This document shows, in pieces, positions 37,040-46,526 of a stretch of DNA of 55,519 nucleotides. Made by a program: the position numbers and the translations under genes. The number at the start of each line of letters is the position of its first letter. Within the stretch, counting starts at the first letter, position 1. This DNA is from an uncultured Deefgea sp. (GTDB lineage Bacteria; Pseudomonadota; Gammaproteobacteria; Burkholderiales; Chitinibacteraceae). The notes below the pieces were generated by a model that had not been told where the DNA came from, did no database searches, and was given only the letters and a program-made list of their open reading frames with translations. The DNA lies in NCBI RefSeq assembly GCF_947072475.1, contig NZ_CAMTIA010000019.1:1-55519 (forward strand). Reading direction: 5' to 3'.

Positions 37040-37116
37040 GGCTATGTAGCTCAGTTGGTTAGAGCACAGCACTCATAATGCTGGGGTCGCAGGTTCGAGT
37101 CCCGCCATAGCCACCA
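37040..37116 (+). tRNA. tRNA-Met (CAU), elongator
   Basis: A 77-base tRNA with CCA encoded. The acceptor stem GGCTATG pairs with CATAGCC. The D-loop, the anticodon CAT in CTCATAA and the T-loop GGTTCGAGTCC are all present. The acceptor sequence and the presence of a first base pair match elongator Met rather than initiator, and differ from the usual CAU Ile2. The gene lies 80 bases after the antiporter, which may contribute its promoter. Confidence 0.95.
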
Positions 37117-37147
37117 GTTATCATTCTCTGGCTAGCACAGAGAATTC

Positions 37148-37183
37148 AAAAGCCCCGTTAATCTTAGGATTACGGGGGTTTTT
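37148..37183 (+). terminator. Terminator after tRNA-Met
   Basis: CCCCGT-AATC pairs with GATT-ACGGGG with one bulged T, flanked by an A run and then TTTTT. It ends the tRNA transcript. Confidence 0.85.
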
Positions 37184-37476
37184 GTTGCCTGCTCGATATT
37201 GATTACCGATGTATTGCCAGCCAAACCAATAGAAAAGCTGATTGCAGCCATATACCTGCATATACGGCCGAGTCCAGATGAAACATTGATACTGCGCCTC
37301 GCGCTCGAACCAAGGCTTGCAAATCACGCCAAGCGCAGCAAATCCCACATTAATCGCTTGCCAAACGAATCAGCGCAAAATCTATTCACTCGTAGCCAGC
37401 TTAGAACTTAAATACATTCACGCAAAGCTGCCGCTCGGTCTTTGCAGGCTCGTGCATCCACTGTGTTCAACCCATC
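37184..37476. other. Intergenic region between tRNA-Met and the AraC gene
   Basis: No gene I can defend. Two opposing frames (plus 37199-37411, minus 37121-37348) overlap each other and the terminator, and neither has a ribosome site. CCATATACCTGCATATACGG near 37249-37268 belongs to the recurrent ATATACC motifs. This is the 3' side of the AraC gene. Confidence 0.5.
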
Positions 37477-38355
37477 TCAAACCTCTGGGCTATGGCTCTG
37501 CGCAAGCCAAGCCCTTGGCGACAAACCAACTCGTTGCGCAAAAACCCGTGACAGCGCTGACGAATTCGCATATCCCAAATTAGATGCAATCAACTTCACG
37601 GCATACCCTTGCCGCAGCTGTTTCTTTGCCAGCGCCATACGCCAATCAGTCAAGTATTCAGCTGGAGCAACGCCCACCACCCGCTTGAAGCGACTAGCAA
37701 AGGCACTGCGTGACATGCTGGCTCGCTCTGCCAGCGCCTCGAGAGTCCAAGGCAACTGTGGATTGTCATGAATGGCAGTGAGCGCATACGCCAATTGCGA
37801 ATCAGCCAATCCCGACGCCAGACCAATCGAAACGCCGCCCTCTTCACCATGATCGAGCAACCAGCGCAGCAATTGAAGCAACACGACAGCAAACAAGCGA
37901 TCTGCGATCAATTTTTGCCCGCACCGCACTTGATCGACCTCCTGAAATAATAACTCGAGCGCGCCAGCCAAACTCGGCACCTTAGATAGCGGTAGCACAA
38001 TGAGTGCTGGCAATGCCCGCACCAAAGGATGCGTCACTCCGCCATCAAAAGACACCGTCGCGCAGGTGAAATCAGCGCCATCTTGCGGCGCATTGTGAAA
38101 CTGATGCGCCAGTGGCTGAGGATAAAACAGCAAAGTGGGCTCAACAATTTCAATGCGAGATTGCAGCCCTGAATTTTGGTGGTGCGTCACCACCACGCCC
38201 CCTCTGCGCAGGACATGAAAAAAGCCTCGCCCTGTCTTCGCTTCAAAATCACTCACACCACACAATATGCCAGCATGAAAAAGGCTAACAGAGACTGGAA
38301 AACGTTCCAGCAATGAGGAAAGTCGATCTAAGGGGGGTTTTGAATTAATCAGCAT
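37477..38355 (-). CDS. AraC-family transcriptional regulator
   Basis: A 292-residue regulator with an N-terminal cupin-type sensing domain (AGILCGVSDFEAKTGRGFFH, then LFYPQPLAHQFHN) and a C-terminal double helix-turn-helix (LEALAERASMSRSAFASRFK and VKLIASNLGYANSSALSRVF). I use the ATG at 38355 (MLINSKPPLDRLS); the frame reaches 38403. It is divergent from the gene for a secreted protein at 38467, with 111 bases between, so that gene and the AhpD-like one after it are its likely targets. The effector is unknown. Confidence 0.9.
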   Translation of the reverse strand: MLINSKPPLDRLSSLLERFPVSVSLFHAGILCGVSDFEAKTGRGFFHVLRRGGVVVTHHQNSGLQSRIEIVEPTLLFYPQPLAHQFHNAPQDGADFTCATVSFDGGVTHPLVRALPALIVLPLSKVPSLAGALELLFQEVDQVRCGQKLIADRLFAVVLLQLLRWLLDHGEEGGVSIGLASGLADSQLAYALTAIHDNPQLPWTLEALAERASMSRSAFASRFKRVVGVAPAEYLTDWRMALAKKQLRQGYAVKLIASNLGYANSSALSRVFAQRVGLSPRAWLAQSHSPEV

Positions 38356-38466
38356 TTGTACGAATAGGTATGTTGTTGATACGGTTAGACACCAATAGTA
38401 CACGACAACGGAGCAGACTATGTCTTGTGCATATTTGCACCATTTTACGAGCTACGAGGCATTCAC

Positions 38467-39225
38467 ATGAGAAAAAATCATAGTTACCCCCACTTCGCAC
38501 TTGCCGTCGCTTTGGCAGGATTTTGCCATTATGCCGCCGCTCACGACAATGAACACTCCGGCGGAATCGAGAGCAAAGCCAGCGCATCGGTCAAGTCACC
38601 CTACGACATTGTGCACACCAAAATCTCAACCGAGGGCAATGAGGCCGTGTTTCACATGCAGGTTTCTGGAAAAGCCGGCGCAAGCAAGCCCGCCAAGTCA
38701 GGAAAACTAGCAGGAAGCCGCGTTTTTTCTTATGTTTGGCCCACCTCGTTAGATCCATCGACCGTTGGCTTTGAAGCTAACAGCGGAATTTTGGCCTTAG
38801 CAATCACTTCCCACCCCGATTTTGATGACACCCCTTTGTTTGATGAGAATGCAGACAACAATCCAAAGAACGATGGTGCAGTTTGGCATACCCACTGGGT
38901 GGTACTACAGCCCGACAAAGCTTGCGGTAAAGACGCCCTTAAAGTTGTCGACATCCCCAAAGACGCCAAACCCAAGCTCCCTAAGACATGGCCGCAATTG
39001 CCGATATTGATCGATAGCCCAGGCTGGAGCCCAACGTTCAAGGGCGACACCTTAGAAGTGCGCGTGCCTTTTGATGATATTGGTGCGATCAACGCAGCAA
39101 GTTTTGATGGCGTCACCGCCGCCTTGCGCGTGAATGCCAGCGTCCACAGTCCGCTACTGTGTGTAGTGAATGTCTTTAAAGTGGCCTCTGGTGATTTATC
39201 ACTCCCGGGCAAGGTTAATCATTAA
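38467..39225 (+). CDS. Secreted periplasmic protein of unknown function
   Basis: From ATG 38467 (GAGG eight bases upstream) the protein starts with a Sec signal peptide ending HYAAA before HDNEHSGG. The 252-residue precursor shows a His/Asp start, FHMQVSGKAG, SYVWPTSLDPSTVGFE, AVWHTHWVVLQPDKACG and a C-terminal VFKVASGDLSLP. Two cysteines could form a disulfide. I recognise no enzyme signature. Several His residues (HDNEH, WHTHW) hint at metal binding but prove nothing. It forms a unit with the AhpD-like gene 44 bases downstream. Confidence 0.8.
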   Translation: MRKNHSYPHFALAVALAGFCHYAAAHDNEHSGGIESKASASVKSPYDIVHTKISTEGNEAVFHMQVSGKAGASKPAKSGKLAGSRVFSYVWPTSLDPSTVGFEANSGILALAITSHPDFDDTPLFDENADNNPKNDGAVWHTHWVVLQPDKACGKDALKVVDIPKDAKPKLPKTWPQLPILIDSPGWSPTFKGDTLEVRVPFDDIGAINAASFDGVTAALRVNASVHSPLLCVVNVFKVASGDLSLPGKVNH

Positions 39226-39269
39226 TTCAACGGTTTCAACCGTTCTCGATCAACGAAAAGGAAATCACC

Positions 39270-39815
39270 ATGTCCCGCGTACAACTTATTAACGCTGCCG
39301 AAACCACAGCCAATCGCCAAATTTTATTAGCGCAGATTCAGCAAGCTTTTGGTGCAACACCGAATATGTTTAAAGCCGTTGCTAATTCACCTGCGGCGCT
39401 AAGCAGCATGTGGGGTTCATTTGCAGCTTTAGGCTCCGGCGTACTGGGTGCAAAACTCGGTGAGCAGATCGCCGTGGCAATTGCTGACTACAATCGCTGC
39501 GAATATTGCTTAGCTGCGCATACGGTATTGGGCAAAAATGCCGGCGTGAGCGCCGATGACTTGCAGGCCGCCCAAGCTGGCCAGTCCACCGATGCTAAAA
39601 CCGCAGCGGCATTGACGTTTGCCTTAAAGGTTGTCAAAAACCGCGCGCAAGTTTCAAATCAAGATATCAGCGAATTACGTGCGGCTGGTTTTGACGACGA
39701 ACATATCGTCGAAATCCTCGCGCATATTGCGCTGAATATTTTCACTAATTATGTGAATGTCGCTTTTGATGTGCCGGTGGACTTTCCACGGGTCGCGTTA
39801 AATCCTACAGTCTGA
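39270..39815 (+). CDS. AhpD-like carboxymuconolactone decarboxylase-fold protein
   Basis: A 181-residue alkylhydroperoxidase/CMD-family protein. The active motif EYCLAAH has the Cys pair CEYC at 77-80 and the His at 84. KNRAQVSNQDISELRAAGF and the closing helix suit the peroxidase-related subgroup. AAGGA precedes the ATG. These small helical proteins reduce peroxides with a dithiol or remain of unknown activity. Nearby ahpF and ahpC fit an oxidative-stress role, though transcribed separately and convergently. Confidence 0.9.
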   Translation: MSRVQLINAAETTANRQILLAQIQQAFGATPNMFKAVANSPAALSSMWGSFAALGSGVLGAKLGEQIAVAIADYNRCEYCLAAHTVLGKNAGVSADDLQAAQAGQSTDAKTAAALTFALKVVKNRAQVSNQDISELRAAGFDDEHIVEILAHIALNIFTNYVNVAFDVPVDFPRVALNPTV

Positions 39816-39901
39816 TCGATGCTAACAAGCGGCACATGACGCATCACATGAAGTACACAAGCAGACGATGATGTCGCTCAGTATTAAAACAAATGCCAAT
39901 A

Positions 39902-39946
39902 GTATTGCCATGCAGCGCTTTTAGATAAAAGCATAGATGGCAATAC
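39902..39946. repeat. GTATTGCCAT-armed hairpin
   Basis: Perfect 10-bp outer arms (39902-39911 and 39937-39946) and a perfect 6-bp inner stem (GCTTTT/AAAAGC) around AGAT. No T run follows. A similar element with GGTATATGGC arms is at 54148-54194. Confidence 0.75.
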
Positions 39947-40042
39947 CTCGATAAATGCGAAACAATTATTCGGGCAATACAGCCACTACACACAACAAGA
40001 TACTGACACGAAAATTTTGCGATTTACCTGAAGCAGTTGCAT

Positions 40043-40072
40043 AAAAAAACGAGGCGCTTGGCCTCGTTTTTT
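40043..40072. terminator. Bidirectional terminator between AhpD-like gene and ahpF
   Basis: AAAAAAACGAGGC and GCCTCGTTTTTT pair around GCTTG. A run before and T run after make it active on both strands between convergent genes. Confidence 0.93.
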
Positions 40073-40092
40073 ACGTCATTTCAATCTTGCGA

Positions 40093-41640
40093 TTAATGCC
40101 CGCTGCGAATCAGGTGATCAAAAGCCGATAACGAGGCTTTAGCGCCTTCGCCCATGGCGATAATAATTTGTTTAAACGGCACGGTCGTCACATCACCGGC
40201 GGCAAACACGCCCGGTACTGAGGTCTGGCCACGAGCATCAACGATGATTTCGCCGCTTGGGCTTAAATCGACCACGCCTTTTAACCAATCGGTATTAGGC
40301 AACAAGCCAATCTGCACAAAGATGCCTTCTAGCTCAATGCTGCGCGCTTCGCCAGAAGCACGATCGGTGTAATTGAGCGCAGTGACTTTTTCGCCATTGC
40401 CAATCACCGCCGTGGTTTGTGCTTGCGTCAAAATCGTCACATTTGGCAGGCTGCGCAATTTGCTTTGCAATACCGCATCAGCGCGCATTTGTTCGCCAAA
40501 CTCAAGCAAGGTGACATGGCTAACAATCCCCGCCAAATCAATCGCCGCTTCGACGCCGGAATTGCCGCCACCAATTACCGCCACACGTTTGCCTTTAAAT
40601 AAAGGACCATCGCAATGCGGGCAGTACGCCACGCCACGACCACGGTATTCTTGCTCGCCCGGCACATTCATTTCACGCCAACGCGCACCTGTCGACAAAA
40701 TCACGCTGCGACTTTGCAATTTAGCGCCATTGACCAATTCAATTTCAATCAAATCGCCCGGAGTTAATTTGCTAGCGCGTTGCAAATTCATAATATCCAC
40801 ATCGTATTCGCGAACATGGTTTTCTAAGGCGCTGGCCAATTTCGGGCCTTCGGTGGCTTTAACCGAAATAAAATTCTCAATGCCCATGGTATCGAGCACT
40901 TGACCGCCGAAACGCTCTGCAACCACGCCAGTACGAATCCCTTTACGGGCAGCATACACTGCAGCCGAGGCACCGGCTGGGCCACCACCGACCACCAACA
41001 CATCAAACGCCGCTTTGGCATTGATGTCTTGGGCGGCACGCTCACCGCTGCGGGTATCGAGCTTGGCCACGATTTCTTCAACCGTCATCCGGCCTTGACC
41101 AAAAGGCTGCTCGTTGAGCAACACGGTTGGTACCGCCATTACGCGCTGCTCAGCCACATAATCTTGATACAAAGCACCATCGACCATGGTGTGGGTAATT
41201 GCTGGATTGAGTACGGCTAATAAATTCAAGGCTTGCACCACATCAGGGCAGTTGTGGCAAGACAAAGAAATAAACGATACAAAGTTCAATGGCCCTGGCA
41301 ATGATTTAATCGTGGCAATCGTTGCCTCATCGACTCGTGGTGGATGACCACCGACTTGCAATAAAGCCAAGACCAAAGACGTAAATTCATGCCCCAATGG
41401 AATGCCGGCAAAATGCACGCGCGGCGCATCGCCAAGGCGAGCAATGGCAAACGATGGGCGCAAGGCGGCAACGCCATCCATACGCAACGTCACTTTAGAA
41501 TTTAAAGCGGCGATTTCTTGCAATAAAGTGCCCATTTCATTGGCGGCAGCAGTTTGATCTAATGAAGCAATCAATTCGATCGGATATTGTAGTTTTTCGA
41601 GATAGCCCTGCAATTGGGCGCTAATTTGAGCATCGAGCAT
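40093..41640 (-). CDS. ahpF: Alkyl hydroperoxide reductase subunit F
   Basis: The NADH-dependent flavoprotein that recharges AhpC. The N-terminal thioredoxin-like domain has CHNC at residues 128-131. The FAD loop [14 protein letters not shown] is near 214-227, the redox CPHC at 340-343, and the NAD loop [14 protein letters not shown] follows. The end, [16 protein letters not shown], is conserved. I use the ATG at 41640 ([11 protein letters not shown]), with GGAGA seven bases upstream; 515 residues, close to E. coli AhpF. It follows ahpC in the same direction. Confidence 0.96.
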
Positions 41641-41780
41641 GGGGATTCTCCGGTTGAATTTCACTGATCAAGGGAAACTTGATCACTGAAATCCATGCCG
41701 CCAGCGGCGGCACGGATTAACAGACTGATCTAAATACGGAGTACTTAGATCGCTAAAGCAGAGGGTTTACAGCGCAGGAA

Positions 41781-42344
41781 TTAGATCTTGCCAACTAAAT
41801 CCAAAGACGGCTTCAAAGTCTCTTCACCTGGGGTCCATTTTGCTGGGCAAACTTCACCTGGATGGCTCGCAATGTATTGCGCTGCTTGTACTTTGCGTAG
41901 CAATTCTTTGGCGTCACGGCCAATACCCAAGTCATGAATTTCTGCGACTTTGATCTCGCCTTCTGGGTTGATCACAAAAGTGCCGCGCAATGCCAAGCCT
42001 TCTTCTTCGATCATCACATCAAAGTTGCGAGTAATCGCACCTGTTGGATCACCGATCATTGGGTAGTTGATTTTTTTGATGGTGTCAGACGCATCGTGCC
42101 AAGCTTTGTGAGTGAAGTGGGTATCAGTGGATACTGAGTACACTTCAACGCCCATTTTTTGGAATTCTGGGTATACATCAGCCAAGTCGCCTAACTCAGT
42201 TGGGCAAACAAAAGTAAAGTCAGCTGGGTAAAAGAACACAATCGACCACTTACCTTTTAGCGTTTCATCGCTAACAGGAACAAATTTGCCTTCGTGGTAA
42301 GCAGTTGCTTTGAAAGGTTTGATAACGGTATTGATAATGGCCAT
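41781..42344 (-). CDS. ahpC: Alkyl hydroperoxide reductase subunit C (peroxiredoxin)
   Basis: A 2-Cys peroxiredoxin that reduces H2O2 and organic peroxides. The peroxidatic Cys47 is in [10 protein letters not shown] and the resolving Cys166 in [10 protein letters not shown]. The catalytic Arg is in GALRGTFVI-type sequence at about 120. An AAGGAG ribosome site is present. It is the upstream gene of an ahpC-ahpF unit; the 140-base spacer has two hairpin-prone palindromes (GATCTAAATAC/GTACTTAGATC near 41735) which could set the AhpC:AhpF ratio. I could not confirm an OxyR site. Confidence 0.97.
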
Positions 42345-42606
42345 GGTGTAGCTCCTTGTGAACAGCGTTGTGTGTAATTGACAGGAGCCATTCTAGCCAC
42401 AATACAGCGATAGTTAAAATGAAATATTTACATCGACCCGTTAGTTTTTTTATATCACGCGTCACCAAGCACCAAGACCAACCGCCTCAGTTGAAGCGAC
42501 CGGTTAAAAACGCCGCCAAGCTGATCAAAACCTGTCTATTTCATTTCTCGTCTTGTATGCTTAACTGAGTCCGGCAAAGGCATATCGTGTAGAGGCGGAA
42601 TAATCC

Positions 42607-43392
42607 ATGCATCCAAAAATTCCAAAAATATTATTTTCTTTGTTTGGCCTTGCTTGCTTTACCACAAGCTATGCCAATGATTGCAATGGCATCAAAACCC
42701 CCAATTACACTTTTCCGGTCAATGACCCCAATTTTCATGGCGTGGCCATTGAATTGCCGGGCATTTTAGAAAATAGTAAGACTGGCCCCTTTCCTGAGCT
42801 CATCGCCGTCATCAATCAGTTTTATCCCGCAGGCAAAATCGACTTCAGCCTCGAACCGGTCAAACGAGTCTACCTCGACATCAATAACAAAAATGCGGAT
42901 TTTCGCTTTCCAACGATGAAGATCAAAGATGGCGCAAAAAATGCTGCGCCATATCAGTATTCCAAAGAAATGCTCGGCAAAGTCACCTTCGTGCTGTACA
43001 CCAACAAAAAACAAATCATCCCCAAACAACAAGTCATCCAAGCCGATAACGACACCAAACTACTCATTGAAGCGCCACCAGCCGACTGGGGGTTTCCAAC
43101 GCGCAGCGTCATCAATCTTGAGCAGTCGCTCAAAAAACTCAATGCCGGTCGCATTGCAGGCGTGCTGTGGGCGCAAGAAGAAAGCGACTATCTGATCAAA
43201 AAATTAAAGCTACAACAAATCCACCGCGCCCATTTTGAAGACTACCCCGATGTATTGTTTTTTTCTTGCAATGCGCGTGGCGACTTCGTCAATGACGCCA
43301 TCAGCAAAGCGATTAAAGCGGCAAGAGATAGCGGCGCACTCGAAAAAGCCTACTTCAAAGTGCATAAACCTTATCAAGATTGGCAACCTTAG
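42607..43392 (+). CDS. Periplasmic substrate-binding protein, SBP_bac_3-like
   Basis: A 261-residue exported protein with a signal peptide ending TSYA before NDCNG. The mature protein has the two-lobed layout of amino-acid-type binding proteins (ELPGILENSK, KIDFSLEPVKRVYLDI, ALEKAYFKVH). The characteristic late YDAISKAIKAARDSGALEKAY-type helix is present. It resembles the family of orphan extracellular solute-binding domains of bacterial sensors and transporters. No permease or ATPase is nearby, so ligand and partner are unknown. GGCGGAA precedes the ATG. Confidence 0.8.
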   Translation: MHPKIPKILFSLFGLACFTTSYANDCNGIKTPNYTFPVNDPNFHGVAIELPGILENSKTGPFPELIAVINQFYPAGKIDFSLEPVKRVYLDINNKNADFRFPTMKIKDGAKNAAPYQYSKEMLGKVTFVLYTNKKQIIPKQQVIQADNDTKLLIEAPPADWGFPTRSVINLEQSLKKLNAGRIAGVLWAQEESDYLIKKLKLQQIHRAHFEDYPDVLFFSCNARGDFVNDAISKAIKAARDSGALEKAYFKVHKPYQDWQP

Positions 43393-43474
43393 TCGCTAAT
43401 CGAGTACACCCTGCTTGCAAGGCAATAAGGCCAGCCAAAATCTGCTATCATTGCGCCCACTTGTTGCTATTATT

Positions 43475-43582
43475 TTGAGCAGGGCTTAGCCCGATAGCAC
43501 CTTGATTTGCTGAGCACCTCAGCAAATTGGGCGCTCCCAGTGATCAATTTCAAAGTCCGCTTCGCAAGAAGTGGGCTTTTTG
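43475..43582 (+). ncRNA. Candidate structured RNA upstream of the J-domain gene
   Basis: Within 110 bases there is a GGGC/GCCC helix, then a perfect 10-bp stem ATTTGCTGAG/CTCAGCAAAT (43505-43527), which AGCCC and GGGCGCT could enclose. A rho-independent terminator ends it (AAGTCCGCTTC/GAAGTGGGCTT, then TTTTT at 43577-43581). A possible promoter (TTGCGC ... TATTAT) lies at about 43451-43475. It stops 45 bases before the J-domain ATG, so it could be an sRNA or an attenuator leader. It does not match 6S, 4.5S, RNase P or a riboswitch class I know. Confidence 0.4.
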
Positions 43583-43626
43583 TTTGCTGGCTCACAAGAT
43601 CACCCTCTACAAATTGAGGTTACTTG

Positions 43627-43911
43627 ATGTCTTTACACGATCATTATGCACAGCTGGGTGTTCAGCCCAATGCCAGCATCGAACTGATTAAAGCGGCCTA
43701 CCGCCGCAATGCGACTCAATTTCATCCTGATCGAAACGCCGCACCCGATGCAGCGGCACGTTTTCGAGAAATTCAAGTTGCTTATGAAGTGCTATCTGAT
43801 AGCGAAAAACGTAAAGCTTACGATGATTATCGTCAGCGCAGCTTAATTGATGATCCTTTGGCTATTGCCCAAGAGATTAGCGCCAAATATCTACAAGGTT
43901 TGTTTCAGTGA
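43627..43911 (+). CDS. Stand-alone J-domain protein
   Basis: A 94-residue protein that is little more than a J domain: helix II, the HPD motif in FHPDRNAAPD, and KRKAYDDY at the end of helix IV. A short tail (LAIAQEISAKYLQGLFQ) follows. It lacks the Gly/Phe and zinc-finger regions of DnaJ. J domains stimulate the ATPase of an Hsp70; no dnaK is in the window. The ATG at 43627 follows TTGAGG. Its stop overlaps the GTG start of the next gene by four bases, so the two are translationally coupled. Confidence 0.9.
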   Translation: MSLHDHYAQLGVQPNASIELIKAAYRRNATQFHPDRNAAPDAAARFREIQVAYEVLSDSEKRKAYDDYRQRSLIDDPLAIAQEISAKYLQGLFQ

Positions 43912-44471
43912 ATATCTCTCCCTTTTTTGCCGAATTAATGCCCGTTTACGACGCCGAGCTCGATGACTTAATGACCGATTCAGAAGGTCGTCCGGCGCTA
44001 AAAAAACGCCTGAATGAAAAACGCCAACAATTTGCTCATCTATTGCCGATGATTGAATTCAGCCCTGAAATGGTGGCGGTGGTTTTCTACAATGCATTTA
44101 GCTTTACTTCACCGGCCATGATGAAAGCACTCATCATTAGCGAGCCTGATGGCGACGATTTTATTTCTTGGGATCAATTGCAAGACAATCTCACGATCGC
44201 CGATTGGGCGCAGCAATACACTGCAGCAGCGGTTGCGGCCGATGGTGGCGAGCAATTTTTAGTCATCGCCGCTGCGCTGGAATATTTGCGAATCAAAGGC
44301 GGCCACTACAGCAGCGCGCCTGAGAGCCATGCCGAGTCAGAATCAATTGACGACGATCACGATGTTTACAATTCAGACGACGATGGCGGGCAGATGGGTG
44401 ATTTAGAAGATTCTGGCGCATCTTGGTTATCAGAACAAGGTTTTGAATCGCACGAATCAGAGCGCAAATAA
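43908..44471 (+). CDS. Uncharacterised acidic protein (J-domain cluster)
   Basis: A 187-residue protein, GTG start overlapping the J-domain gene by four bases. Residues 1-140 look helical and soluble, with no signal peptide or membrane segment. The last 45 are very acidic and Ser-rich (ESESIDDDHD, NSDDDGG, ESHESERK). I do not recognise a domain. The acidic tail suggests flexibility or binding to a basic partner. The coupling to a J-domain protein makes it a probable client or targeting partner of that co-chaperone. Confidence 0.75.
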   Translation: MNISPFFAELMPVYDAELDDLMTDSEGRPALKKRLNEKRQQFAHLLPMIEFSPEMVAVVFYNAFSFTSPAMMKALIISEPDGDDFISWDQLQDNLTIADWAQQYTAAAVAADGGEQFLVIAAALEYLRIKGGHYSSAPESHAESESIDDDHDVYNSDDDGGQMGDLEDSGASWLSEQGFESHESERK

Positions 44472-44551
44472 GTGGCCGCAATCGGTACCGACGAGCGTCG
44501 GTTGACCATTGGCTCTTGCTACCTAAATTCAACGCTGCAAAAGGACTGATC

Positions 44552-45319
44552 ATGCATCCAGCAATTATCAATGCCTCACAACTCATTTTGGTTGGCGATA
44601 TTTTAGGCGCCGAAAAAGTGCTGTCCGATATTGCCGATCAACACGGCGATACGGCGCTGATGCAAATTTTGGGCGATGTTGCGCCCAAAGATTTGCTGGC
44701 CATTATGCGCGAATATGATTCTTCCAAAGAATCGTTATTGAGCATGATGGTCACCCCGGAGCAATTTGCCCGCGCAGTCGTACTCGATAAGCACTATGGC
44801 GAGCGCAATAAAGACAAAATGCGCGGCATGATGAATGCGGTGATCTATAAAAATCCCGATTTAACCAGCGAGTATCTTGAGCCGATTTTTAAAGCAGCCG
44901 GTGGCGTTGAGACGATGGCGGATTATTTTTATGGCCGTTTAGAAGACGTGCTCAACTTTGTGATGCACGCCAGCAATACCACCACCCCGCTGCCATTTTT
45001 ATCGGATGATGGCGATAGCACTAGCGATGAAATTCGCGAGTTTTTTAATGTGTTTCATTCGCTGGAACATATTTTGGATAAAACCAACTGGAGCTATACC
45101 CGCTCAGAAGTGGCTGATAACGACTGGAAAGAAACCATTTGGCTGCTGTTTCACGAGCTTCCTGATGAATTTGAATTACTCATCGGCGAATTACAAGGCC
45201 GCGCTTTAATGCAAGCAATGCGCAATGAGCGTCGCAGCAAACCGATTAGCGATAGCGCACTCGAAAGCCTGATGCAGGCAATTAGCAAAACGGATGATAC
45301 TGAGGAGTCGGCAATTTAA
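44552..45319 (+). CDS. Uncharacterised protein (J-domain cluster)
   Basis: From ATG 44552 (AAGGA six bases upstream; the frame opens 36 bases earlier) this is a 255-residue soluble protein. It has helix-rich sequence (ILGAEKVLSDIADQHG, LLAIMREYDSSKESLLSM, EYLEPIFKAAGGVETMADYF) with a mildly acidic middle (DDGDSTSDE). No catalytic motif, signal peptide or membrane segment is visible. I do not recognise it. A CCGAC/GTCGG hairpin lies in the 80-base spacer before it. The next gene starts one base after its stop. Confidence 0.75.
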   Translation: MHPAIINASQLILVGDILGAEKVLSDIADQHGDTALMQILGDVAPKDLLAIMREYDSSKESLLSMMVTPEQFARAVVLDKHYGERNKDKMRGMMNAVIYKNPDLTSEYLEPIFKAAGGVETMADYFYGRLEDVLNFVMHASNTTTPLPFLSDDGDSTSDEIREFFNVFHSLEHILDKTNWSYTRSEVADNDWKETIWLLFHELPDEFELLIGELQGRALMQAMRNERRSKPISDSALESLMQAISKTDDTEESAI

Positions 45320-45320
45320 T

Positions 45321-46526
45321 ATGAGCATCAGTACCACCGTCACTGCGTTTGACTCACGCCGCTTTTTTGATAAAGCTTTTGTCTACGGCGTTCAGCACGG
45401 CATCATCAGTGCTGAACGGCAAACGACGATTCAAGCTGATTTAGCCAAGGGCATGGTGCAGATTGCCAATTATTTTGGCACGGCCTATCTGCGCCCCGAT
45501 CTTGAGCTAGCGATTATCCGCATCACCAATTTGATCAGCATTTACCTTGAAGACCACGCTCAAGGTGATGTGCAAATTGGCGCGCAGTCTTTGCAAAATA
45601 ACTCGTTACTATCGCACTCGAAACAAGGCGCCGATATGCTGCGCCGCCTGCACGCCATGCCCAAAGAAACCTTGCTACTGCAGCATGACCCAGCGTCCAG
45701 CGACGAGCAGCAATCGTTTCTCAATGAAATGAGCCGTGAATCGCAGATTTCGTGGCCCGACTACCAAGCGCAATTAGCGCGAGGACAAGCGATTCAAAAC
45801 CAGCTGGATCTTGGCTTTTGGCTGGCCAAAAAACTGCGATTAGCCAGCGAAGAAATTTGCGATGCCGAGCAACTGATCAACACCGCGATGCTGTTGATTT
45901 TGACACCGAAAGCCGCGATGAAGCGGCCCAAACGCAGTGAGTTTGATGCTTTGCTTAAAGCGCTTAAACCGAAAAAAATCAGCGAAAATCCTGAGCGATT
46001 CGCGTTGTTTTTTAGCGATGCGCCGCCAAAAATCGAGCAAATCGCCCAAACAGAGATGGCGCGATTTATCGCCCAAGAATGGCCCAAAATTCGCAGCAAG
46101 CAATTGAATCTGGCCCATTACTACATCCATGGCGGCATTGATGCGATTAGTGAATACGATGAAGCCATTGCCAAAAATTGGCAGCGCATTAGCCATAACG
46201 ACGACAATAGCGTGATTGCCACGCTGTTTTTATTGGTGGCGACGGGTCAACCAGTCAAATCAGCCATGCTCAAACGCGAAGCCAGCGCCATGGTGCAAGC
46301 GCTGCGCGAACAGGGCCTCAACAATGCGGCAGTGATTGAATTTATCGAGCAGCATGTGCCGGTTGAATTACGCGAAGAGTTGACCGATTTTTGGCTTAAT
46401 GATTTAAAAGAAGACGCAGACACGGCTCTTGCCAATAAAGACCCTGAGTTTCCGGATCTGTATATGGAACGCGCTTTTAAATATCTGCAAAACAACTGCA
46501 ACACCACTTGGAAAGGCCGTAGCTAA
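45321..46526 (+). CDS. Uncharacterised protein (J-domain cluster)
   Basis: A 401-residue soluble protein starting at ATG 45321, two bases after the previous stop codon ends. It is mainly helical, with long amphipathic stretches (FDALLKALKPKKISENPERF, AKNWQRISHNDDNSV, AMVQALREQGLNNAAVIEFI) and an acidic C-terminal region (DFWLNDLKEDADTA). No enzyme motif, Walker loop or membrane segment is seen. I do not recognise it. The frame opens at 45294 inside the previous gene, but MSISTT has the better context. It ends the cluster. Confidence 0.75.
   Translation: MSISTTVTAFDSRRFFDKAFVYGVQHGIISAERQTTIQADLAKGMVQIANYFGTAYLRPDLELAIIRITNLISIYLEDHAQGDVQIGAQSLQNNSLLSHSKQGADMLRRLHAMPKETLLLQHDPASSDEQQSFLNEMSRESQISWPDYQAQLARGQAIQNQLDLGFWLAKKLRLASEEICDAEQLINTAMLLILTPKAAMKRPKRSEFDALLKALKPKKISENPERFALFFSDAPPKIEQIAQTEMARFIAQEWPKIRSKQLNLAHYYIHGGIDAISEYDEAIAKNWQRISHNDDNSVIATLFLLVATGQPVKSAMLKREASAMVQALREQGLNNAAVIEFIEQHVPVELREELTDFWLNDLKEDADTALANKDPEFPDLYMERAFKYLQNNCNTTWKGRS

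Follow-up and report, generated by a model that had tools for sequence, protein, structure and literature searches.

A divergent branch of the atcJABC operon in Deefgea and Iodobacter, with changes at its presumed contact points

We analysed a 55,519-nucleotide stretch of DNA (the window) from an uncultured Deefgea species; it makes up contig 19 of a 3.45 Mb genome. Our subject is a set of four genes, all on one strand, that occupy positions 43627-46526 and are arranged as J-A-B-C (Table 1). The original prediction, made from the sequence alone, described a J-domain gene linked to three soluble proteins on the plus strand. Gene positions, a Pfam DnaJ match (1.3e-23) for protein 1, and hydropathy all agree with this description. 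No membrane segment is evident in the four proteins; the Kyte-Doolittle maximum, over 19-residue windows, is at most 1.42, as the prediction had it. The very acidic Ser/Asp tail attributed to one protein belongs to the product of gene 2, where the last 50 residues include 9 D, 8 E, 9 S, 1 K and 1 R. The genes were also said to overlap, or nearly so. This is correct for two junctions: the sequence GTGA, at 43908-43911, is a 4-base overlap of genes 1 and 2, and a single base separates the stop codon of gene 3 from the start of gene 4. However, gene 3 begins 80 bases past gene 2. As predicted, the window encodes no Hsp70. A dnaK-dnaJ pair sits elsewhere in the genome, on a different contig, and, besides DnaJ, protein 1 is the sole J-domain protein above the Pfam cut-off in that genome.

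Table 1. Features of the locus, with positions counted from the first base of the window.
Feature	Position	Strand	Description
Structured RNA 5' of atcJ	43453-43586	+	Present in 4/7 Deefgea genomes; outside the conserved operon
atcJ homologue	43627-43911	+	94 aa; J domain residues 5-66, HPD 33-35, 28-residue C-terminal tail
atcA homologue	43908-44471	+	187 aa, GTG start; N-terminal domain, acidic linker, conserved C-terminal peptide G-x-x-W-L-x-E-Q-G-F
atcB homologue	44552-45319	+	255 aa, ATG start; helical model; C-terminal end E-E-S-A-I
atcC homologue	45321-46526	+	401 aa; residues 9-253 align with AtcC, 254-401 do not

Proteins 2 to 4 have no Pfam family above its cut-off, and the original prediction recognised no domain in them. 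Comparison of profiles nevertheless relates them to known proteins. Note that we refer to two groups of loci throughout. The ‘beta’ group contains loci from the order of the window, as defined by the search tool, and the named contigs L069-L073, of which two carry names only at phylum or class level. The ‘gamma’ group contains comparator loci from the same wider class, outside that order, and its label rests on the NCBI atc models. Profiles built from 27-28 beta sequences were aligned, using hhalign, with those from 20 gamma operons. The A-A, B-B and C-C pairs scored 93.9%, 79.7% and 93.9%, respectively, while none of the six crossed pairs exceeded 0.4%. The C-C match covers 238 columns. Consistent with this, HMM searches of L022, L023 and L024 found the gene in the same position to be the best match for all four genes. 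One of these loci, the comparator L023, clears the curated NCBI cut-offs for AtcJ, AtcA, AtcB and AtcC. Protein sizes for J, A and B are also alike (94/187/255 aa compared with 94/176/253 aa in the comparator). Hence, given the pairing of profiles, and the passing of the NCBI models by L023, the window operon is, close to certainly, a homologue of atcJABC.

The NCBI models themselves respond weakly to the window. The AtcJ model, NF050028, spans nearly the whole of protein 1, yet scores 52 of the 150 bits required; generic DnaJ models reach up to 83. For protein 2, the match to the AtcA model NF047888 is collinear but sub-threshold (E 0.04, 13.7/200 bits). The NCBIfam AtcB and AtcC models (NF047889 and NF047890) found no match in the window proteins. 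Of 19 beta relatives of AtcA, 8 match NF047888 at E values up to 0.1, the best being 6.9e-7. Since the equivalog cut-offs are missed, we call this a variant branch rather than a standard member. AlphaFold models were obtained for AtcB (pLDDT 78) and AtcC (pLDDT 82, pTM 0.54), and neither had a PDB match with E < 0.001 in Foldseek. Separately, the predicted fold of AtcB, and a weak profile match, hint tentatively at a helical fold of the MgtE cytosolic N-domain type.

The kind of system is therefore already known, having been published in 2019 for Shewanella. In that study (PMC6715715), S. oneidensis AtcJ, a 94 aa protein, stimulates the DnaK ATPase and requires its HPD motif to do so. The last 21 residues of AtcJ bind AtcC, with a Kd of 7 nM for the full protein and 80 nM for the peptide, and AtcC binds AtcB. 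At 7 C, growth is strongly impaired without atcJ, atcB or atcC, but not without atcA. Expression of the operon is described there as hardly changing with temperature (PMC6715715). According to two meeting reports, Shewanella AtcB contacts RNA polymerase (PMC7871303), and the mechanism of cold growth is still to be found (PMC10939069). The window operon resembles that of S. oneidensis (AtcJ = SO_1850) in gene order, in the sizes of J, A and B, in the acidic AtcA tail, in a J domain with HPD followed by a short tail (P-x10-aromatic), in having no evident membrane segment, and in the profile-level relationship of A, B and C. It differs in falling below the cut-offs of NF050028, NF047888, NF047889 and NF047890, and in features of the proteins considered below. 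A further difference concerns the J/A junction. While J and A are 8-24 bases apart in 74/80 Shewanella, Moritella and Aeromonas genomes (PMC6715715), they overlap by 4 bases in the window, and in 26/26 beta loci for which a script located the complete gene set.

We next consider where the operon occurs. Deefgea and Iodobacter both belong to the Chitinibacteraceae (Neisseriales). In this family, 16/43 genomes have AtcC relatives: 7/7 Deefgea and 9/9 Iodobacter genomes, compared with 0/27 in nine other genera. Each of the 16 carriers has one AtcC match. Across the order, AtcC relatives were found in 13/300 sampled genomes, and the AtcA profile had matches in 18/399; the 13 AtcC carriers recur in the latter sample. 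Carriers of the beta operon, ordered J-A-B-C, are thus Deefgea, Iodobacter and scattered relatives. All 18 AtcA-positive genomes have J, A, B and C together, counting one with AtcC divided between two contigs (G584) and one in which a contig end cuts the J gene (G556). Conservation of the gene set in relatives was the check proposed with the original prediction, and the operon passes it. Likewise, the four genes are together in 40/41 beta-side and 21/21 comparator loci. These counts are conditional, because loci were chosen by an AtcA or AtcC match; 5/41 repeat an already counted genome, and 20/21 comparator loci themselves supplied the sequences for the A, B and C models. Only L053 lacks the full set, as it carries the remaining half of a split operon. 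The NF047888 model itself had matches in 5/398 genomes of a phylum sample (3 above the cut-off), and 1/369 in a sample of the class of genome G258. One locus, L026 (G410:C35:12500-23500), carries a more distant operon, with a P-x7-W tail in AtcJ and AtcB- and AtcC-like genes. Its AtcA match is weak, and an in-frame TAA is reported within it. L026 is possibly a third branch. Flanking reading frames were also compared across loci, but real genes were mixed with chance frames, and we make no reading of neighbourhoods outside Deefgea.

What is of interest here is that the presumed contact points of the branch seem to be changed. In the window, the AtcJ tail reads P77-x7-S85-x2-Y88. Hence, while the J domain, HPD and short extension of a 94 aa protein are all present, the tail has P-x7-S in place of P-x7-W. 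A study on the conservation of AtcJ (Weber 2023) reportedly gives P-x7-W as a motif of the AtcJ tail, and its authors reportedly also allow other functions. We compared tails in 36 beta loci (L053 lacks J, and the five genome-repeating loci were excluded), with the proline placed by script. The residue at P+8 is Trp in 21/21 gamma loci but only 15/35 beta loci. The other 20 have Ala (11), Ser (6), Thr (2) or Phe (1). All 15 fetched Deefgea and Iodobacter loci, like the window, are without the tail Trp. Conversely, residue P+11 is Tyr in 35/35 beta loci and Phe or Tyr in 19/21 gamma loci, and so this aromatic position is better kept than the P+8 Trp. Despite the substitution of Trp by Ser, Thr or Ala, the tail may well still bind AtcC, with the conserved Tyr, three residues on, probably the anchor. 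The Deefgea and Iodobacter sequences, whose AtcJ tails have no Trp, carry Arg in place of AtcC Pro14. We rejected this change as a required partner of Trp loss: L054, L069, L073 and L145, also without the Trp, keep Pro.

Two other proteins of the branch have distinctive ends. AtcA terminates with [WF]LxxQGF in 32/35 beta loci, and the other three have WM; in the window the end is WLxEQGF. This peptide is found in 0/18 gamma loci where the model located AtcA (of 21). Similarly, AtcB ends with an EESA[IL]-type peptide in 35/35 beta loci, and 0/21 gamma loci. Both ends could be docking peptides. A literature search pairing AtcJ, or the AtcA/AtcC names, with Deefgea or Iodobacter found no Atc term in the papers it covered; we make no claim that the Trp-less branch is unpublished.

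Our preferred explanation, to which we assign a probability of roughly 80%, is that these genes form a divergent version of the cold-adaptation operon atcJABC, in which AtcJ recruits DnaK for growth in the cold. The J domain of AtcJ would stimulate the housekeeping DnaK, and the C-terminal tail would dock on AtcC, which in turn would hold AtcB. The resulting AtcJ-AtcC-AtcB assembly would bring DnaK to a specific target, allowing growth to continue in the cold. Since all four genes are homologous, their order is kept, and DnaK is encoded in the genome, we infer an S. oneidensis-type function for Deefgea; the cold role itself is extended to this genus by homology. The atcJABC relationship also bears out the idea, in the original prediction, of a co-chaperone tied to a private set of partners. 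A parallel is the HscB-HscA-IscU system, with a dedicated J protein encoded next to its partner, and an analogy in Hsp70 targeting drawn in the Shewanella report (PMC6715715). However, HscB works with a dedicated Hsp70 (HscA) and passes IscU on, while the window AtcJ has a tail only, and DnaK is its presumed Hsp70. In support of a cold role, the two genera of the family that carry the operon are Deefgea and Iodobacter, and the latter includes a strain, presumably a carrier, that grows from -5 to 25 C (PMC9298515). As a separate observation, the same source describes the proteome of Iodobacter sp. PCH194, in which ‘DnaJ’, which could be DnaJ or AtcJ, is up at freezing temperature and DnaK is not (PMC9298515).

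Several observations weigh against this explanation. All four NCBI equivalog cut-offs are missed, with J scoring below generic DnaJ models. The B-B profile match, the weakest of the three, spans only around 100 residues in the N-terminal half. The tail tryptophan is absent from the window AtcJ and, at 401 aa, AtcC is around 100 residues longer than its gamma counterparts (296-300 aa). Even within the family of G258, on the comparator side, distribution is uneven (NF047888 finds AtcA in 38/96 genomes and 2/5 genera), and so losses or transfers must have happened. Finally, the literature consulted offers functional results for none of the copies in this branch. Some of these facts would also fit an operon homologous to atcJABC whose job has changed, such that its J protein works for a different assembly or stress, and not for cold growth. 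The replacement of Trp at P+8 by Ala, Ser or Thr in 19/35 beta tails (and Phe in 1/35), the longer AtcC, and AtcA and AtcB end peptides that comparators lack, could all reflect such a change. Conversely, the whole ordered cassette is intact over a wide range, suggesting one shared task, and the operon is in 16/16 Deefgea and Iodobacter genomes but 0/27 from the nine other genera. We regard a change of job as distinctly unlikely. It is highly improbable that these genes form an assembly or defence system that is both new and unrelated, and in which a J protein occurs by chance. Proteins 2 to 4 do lack Pfam families, and the AtcB and AtcC models lack PDB matches, but both profiles and operon structure identify the genes with atcJABC. 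Furthermore, PADLOC models were matched by 0/4 window proteins at E values up to 10, no viral contig was matched in one close-relative scan with AtcC, and there is a single AtcC match in each of the 16 family carriers. The original prediction had offered a new assembly, stress or defence system. A stress role is retained as the best inference; the system is not of a new kind, and shows no sign of defence.

The original prediction also placed a structured, RNA-like leader in front of the genes. The region 43460-43626 folds better than its shuffles (z -4.97, 0/200), although a terminator hairpin contributes to the score. This terminator-like hairpin, of 12 pairs, lies at 43552-43579 and ends around 40 bases 5' of atcJ. 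By eye, the RNA has its 5' end near 43453, so the predicted start, 43475, falls inside it. Also by eye, there is an extended -10 sequence, TGCTATCAT, at 43443-43451 (TGnTATCAT in the window and TGnTATAAT in three genomes), a 5' element at 43455-43467, and an inner hairpin at about 43501-43531. A sigma-70 consensus scan of 43350-43700 calls no site, either for the leader or for atcJ. At the gathering score, Rfam has no family in the window except a tRNA. We rejected the leader as a known RNA, since the closest match below threshold, to BTnc231, reached 20.5 bits against 80.4. Full-length matches to the leader, with 80-100% identity, are present in 4/7 Deefgea genomes. The other three match in the hairpin only (38, 38 and 35 bases); here (L030, L031 and L032), tRNA-Met precedes the same hairpin, 80-85 bases before atcJ. 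In L060 there is tRNA-Met as well, around 880 bases upstream. Among Iodobacter, inspected by eye, 2/9 carry the hairpin behind other sequence and 7/9 have no hairpin beside atcJ. Hence, the leader is structured and has a terminator but belongs to a subset of Deefgea; we reject it as a conserved part of the operon.

Pairing within the leader suggests attenuation or, alternatively, a closed small RNA. The 5' element, GCCCACTTGTTGC, can pair with the 3' arm of the terminator (8 + 4 pairs, -22.9 kcal/mol). In the four genomes, this energy was reached by 1, 2, 0 and 0 of 1000 shuffles; because the element is shared, these tests are not independent. The leader could thus be a cis-acting attenuator, in which the 5' element captures the 3' arm and lets transcription through to atcJABC. 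The rarity of such pairing in shuffles, the closeness of the terminator to atcJ with no promoter found by the scan, and an inner hairpin that persists with different letters in L027 and L028, are consistent with this. However, the pairing was noticed after the fact, and both elements are invariant and offer no covariation. In three Deefgea genomes tRNA-Met takes the slot of the leader, and most Iodobacter lack the hairpin. The scan gives no promoter for the leader either, which may equally be an independent small RNA. Moreover, the Shewanella operon is hardly temperature-responsive (PMC6715715). For each of the four genomes, the computed balance at low temperature moves towards the terminator, which speaks against attenuation and led us to reject the leader as a cold-on switch. 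On balance, attenuation is a tentative proposal that we think somewhat unlikely.

Upstream of atcJ, positions 37040-43626 form a variable stretch beside a tRNA. The distance from tRNA-Met to atcJ is 6.5 kb in the window, 80-85 bases in L030, L031 and L032, and around 3.8, 13.5 and 16.3 kb in three other Deefgea. In the window, by eye, the stretch contains genes of AhpF and AhpC type, one for an AraC-type regulator and two for exported proteins, and another terminator-like hairpin follows the tRNA at about 37148-37184.

A more elaborate proposal is that the branch has rebuilt the atc machine. AtcC would have gained its C-terminal part and become a hub on which three short C-terminal peptides meet: WLxEQGF from AtcA, EESAI from AtcB, and the AtcJ tail, in which Tyr88 takes over from Trp as the anchor. 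In some Deefgea, an RNA attenuator would be added. We consider this combination unlikely. If true, another residue could stand in for the Trp of the Shewanella AtcJ tail, and AtcA, without which Shewanella still grows in the cold, would have a working role in this branch.

With the operon taken as a branch of atcJABC, its four genes can be named by annotators in Deefgea, Iodobacter and some relatives. AtcA, which has no phenotype in Shewanella, gains a conserved feature to examine. The branch retains the cassette, yet it has exchanged a tail residue that is the same in 21/21 comparators, and it adds terminal peptides. It is, in this respect, a natural test of which contacts matter.

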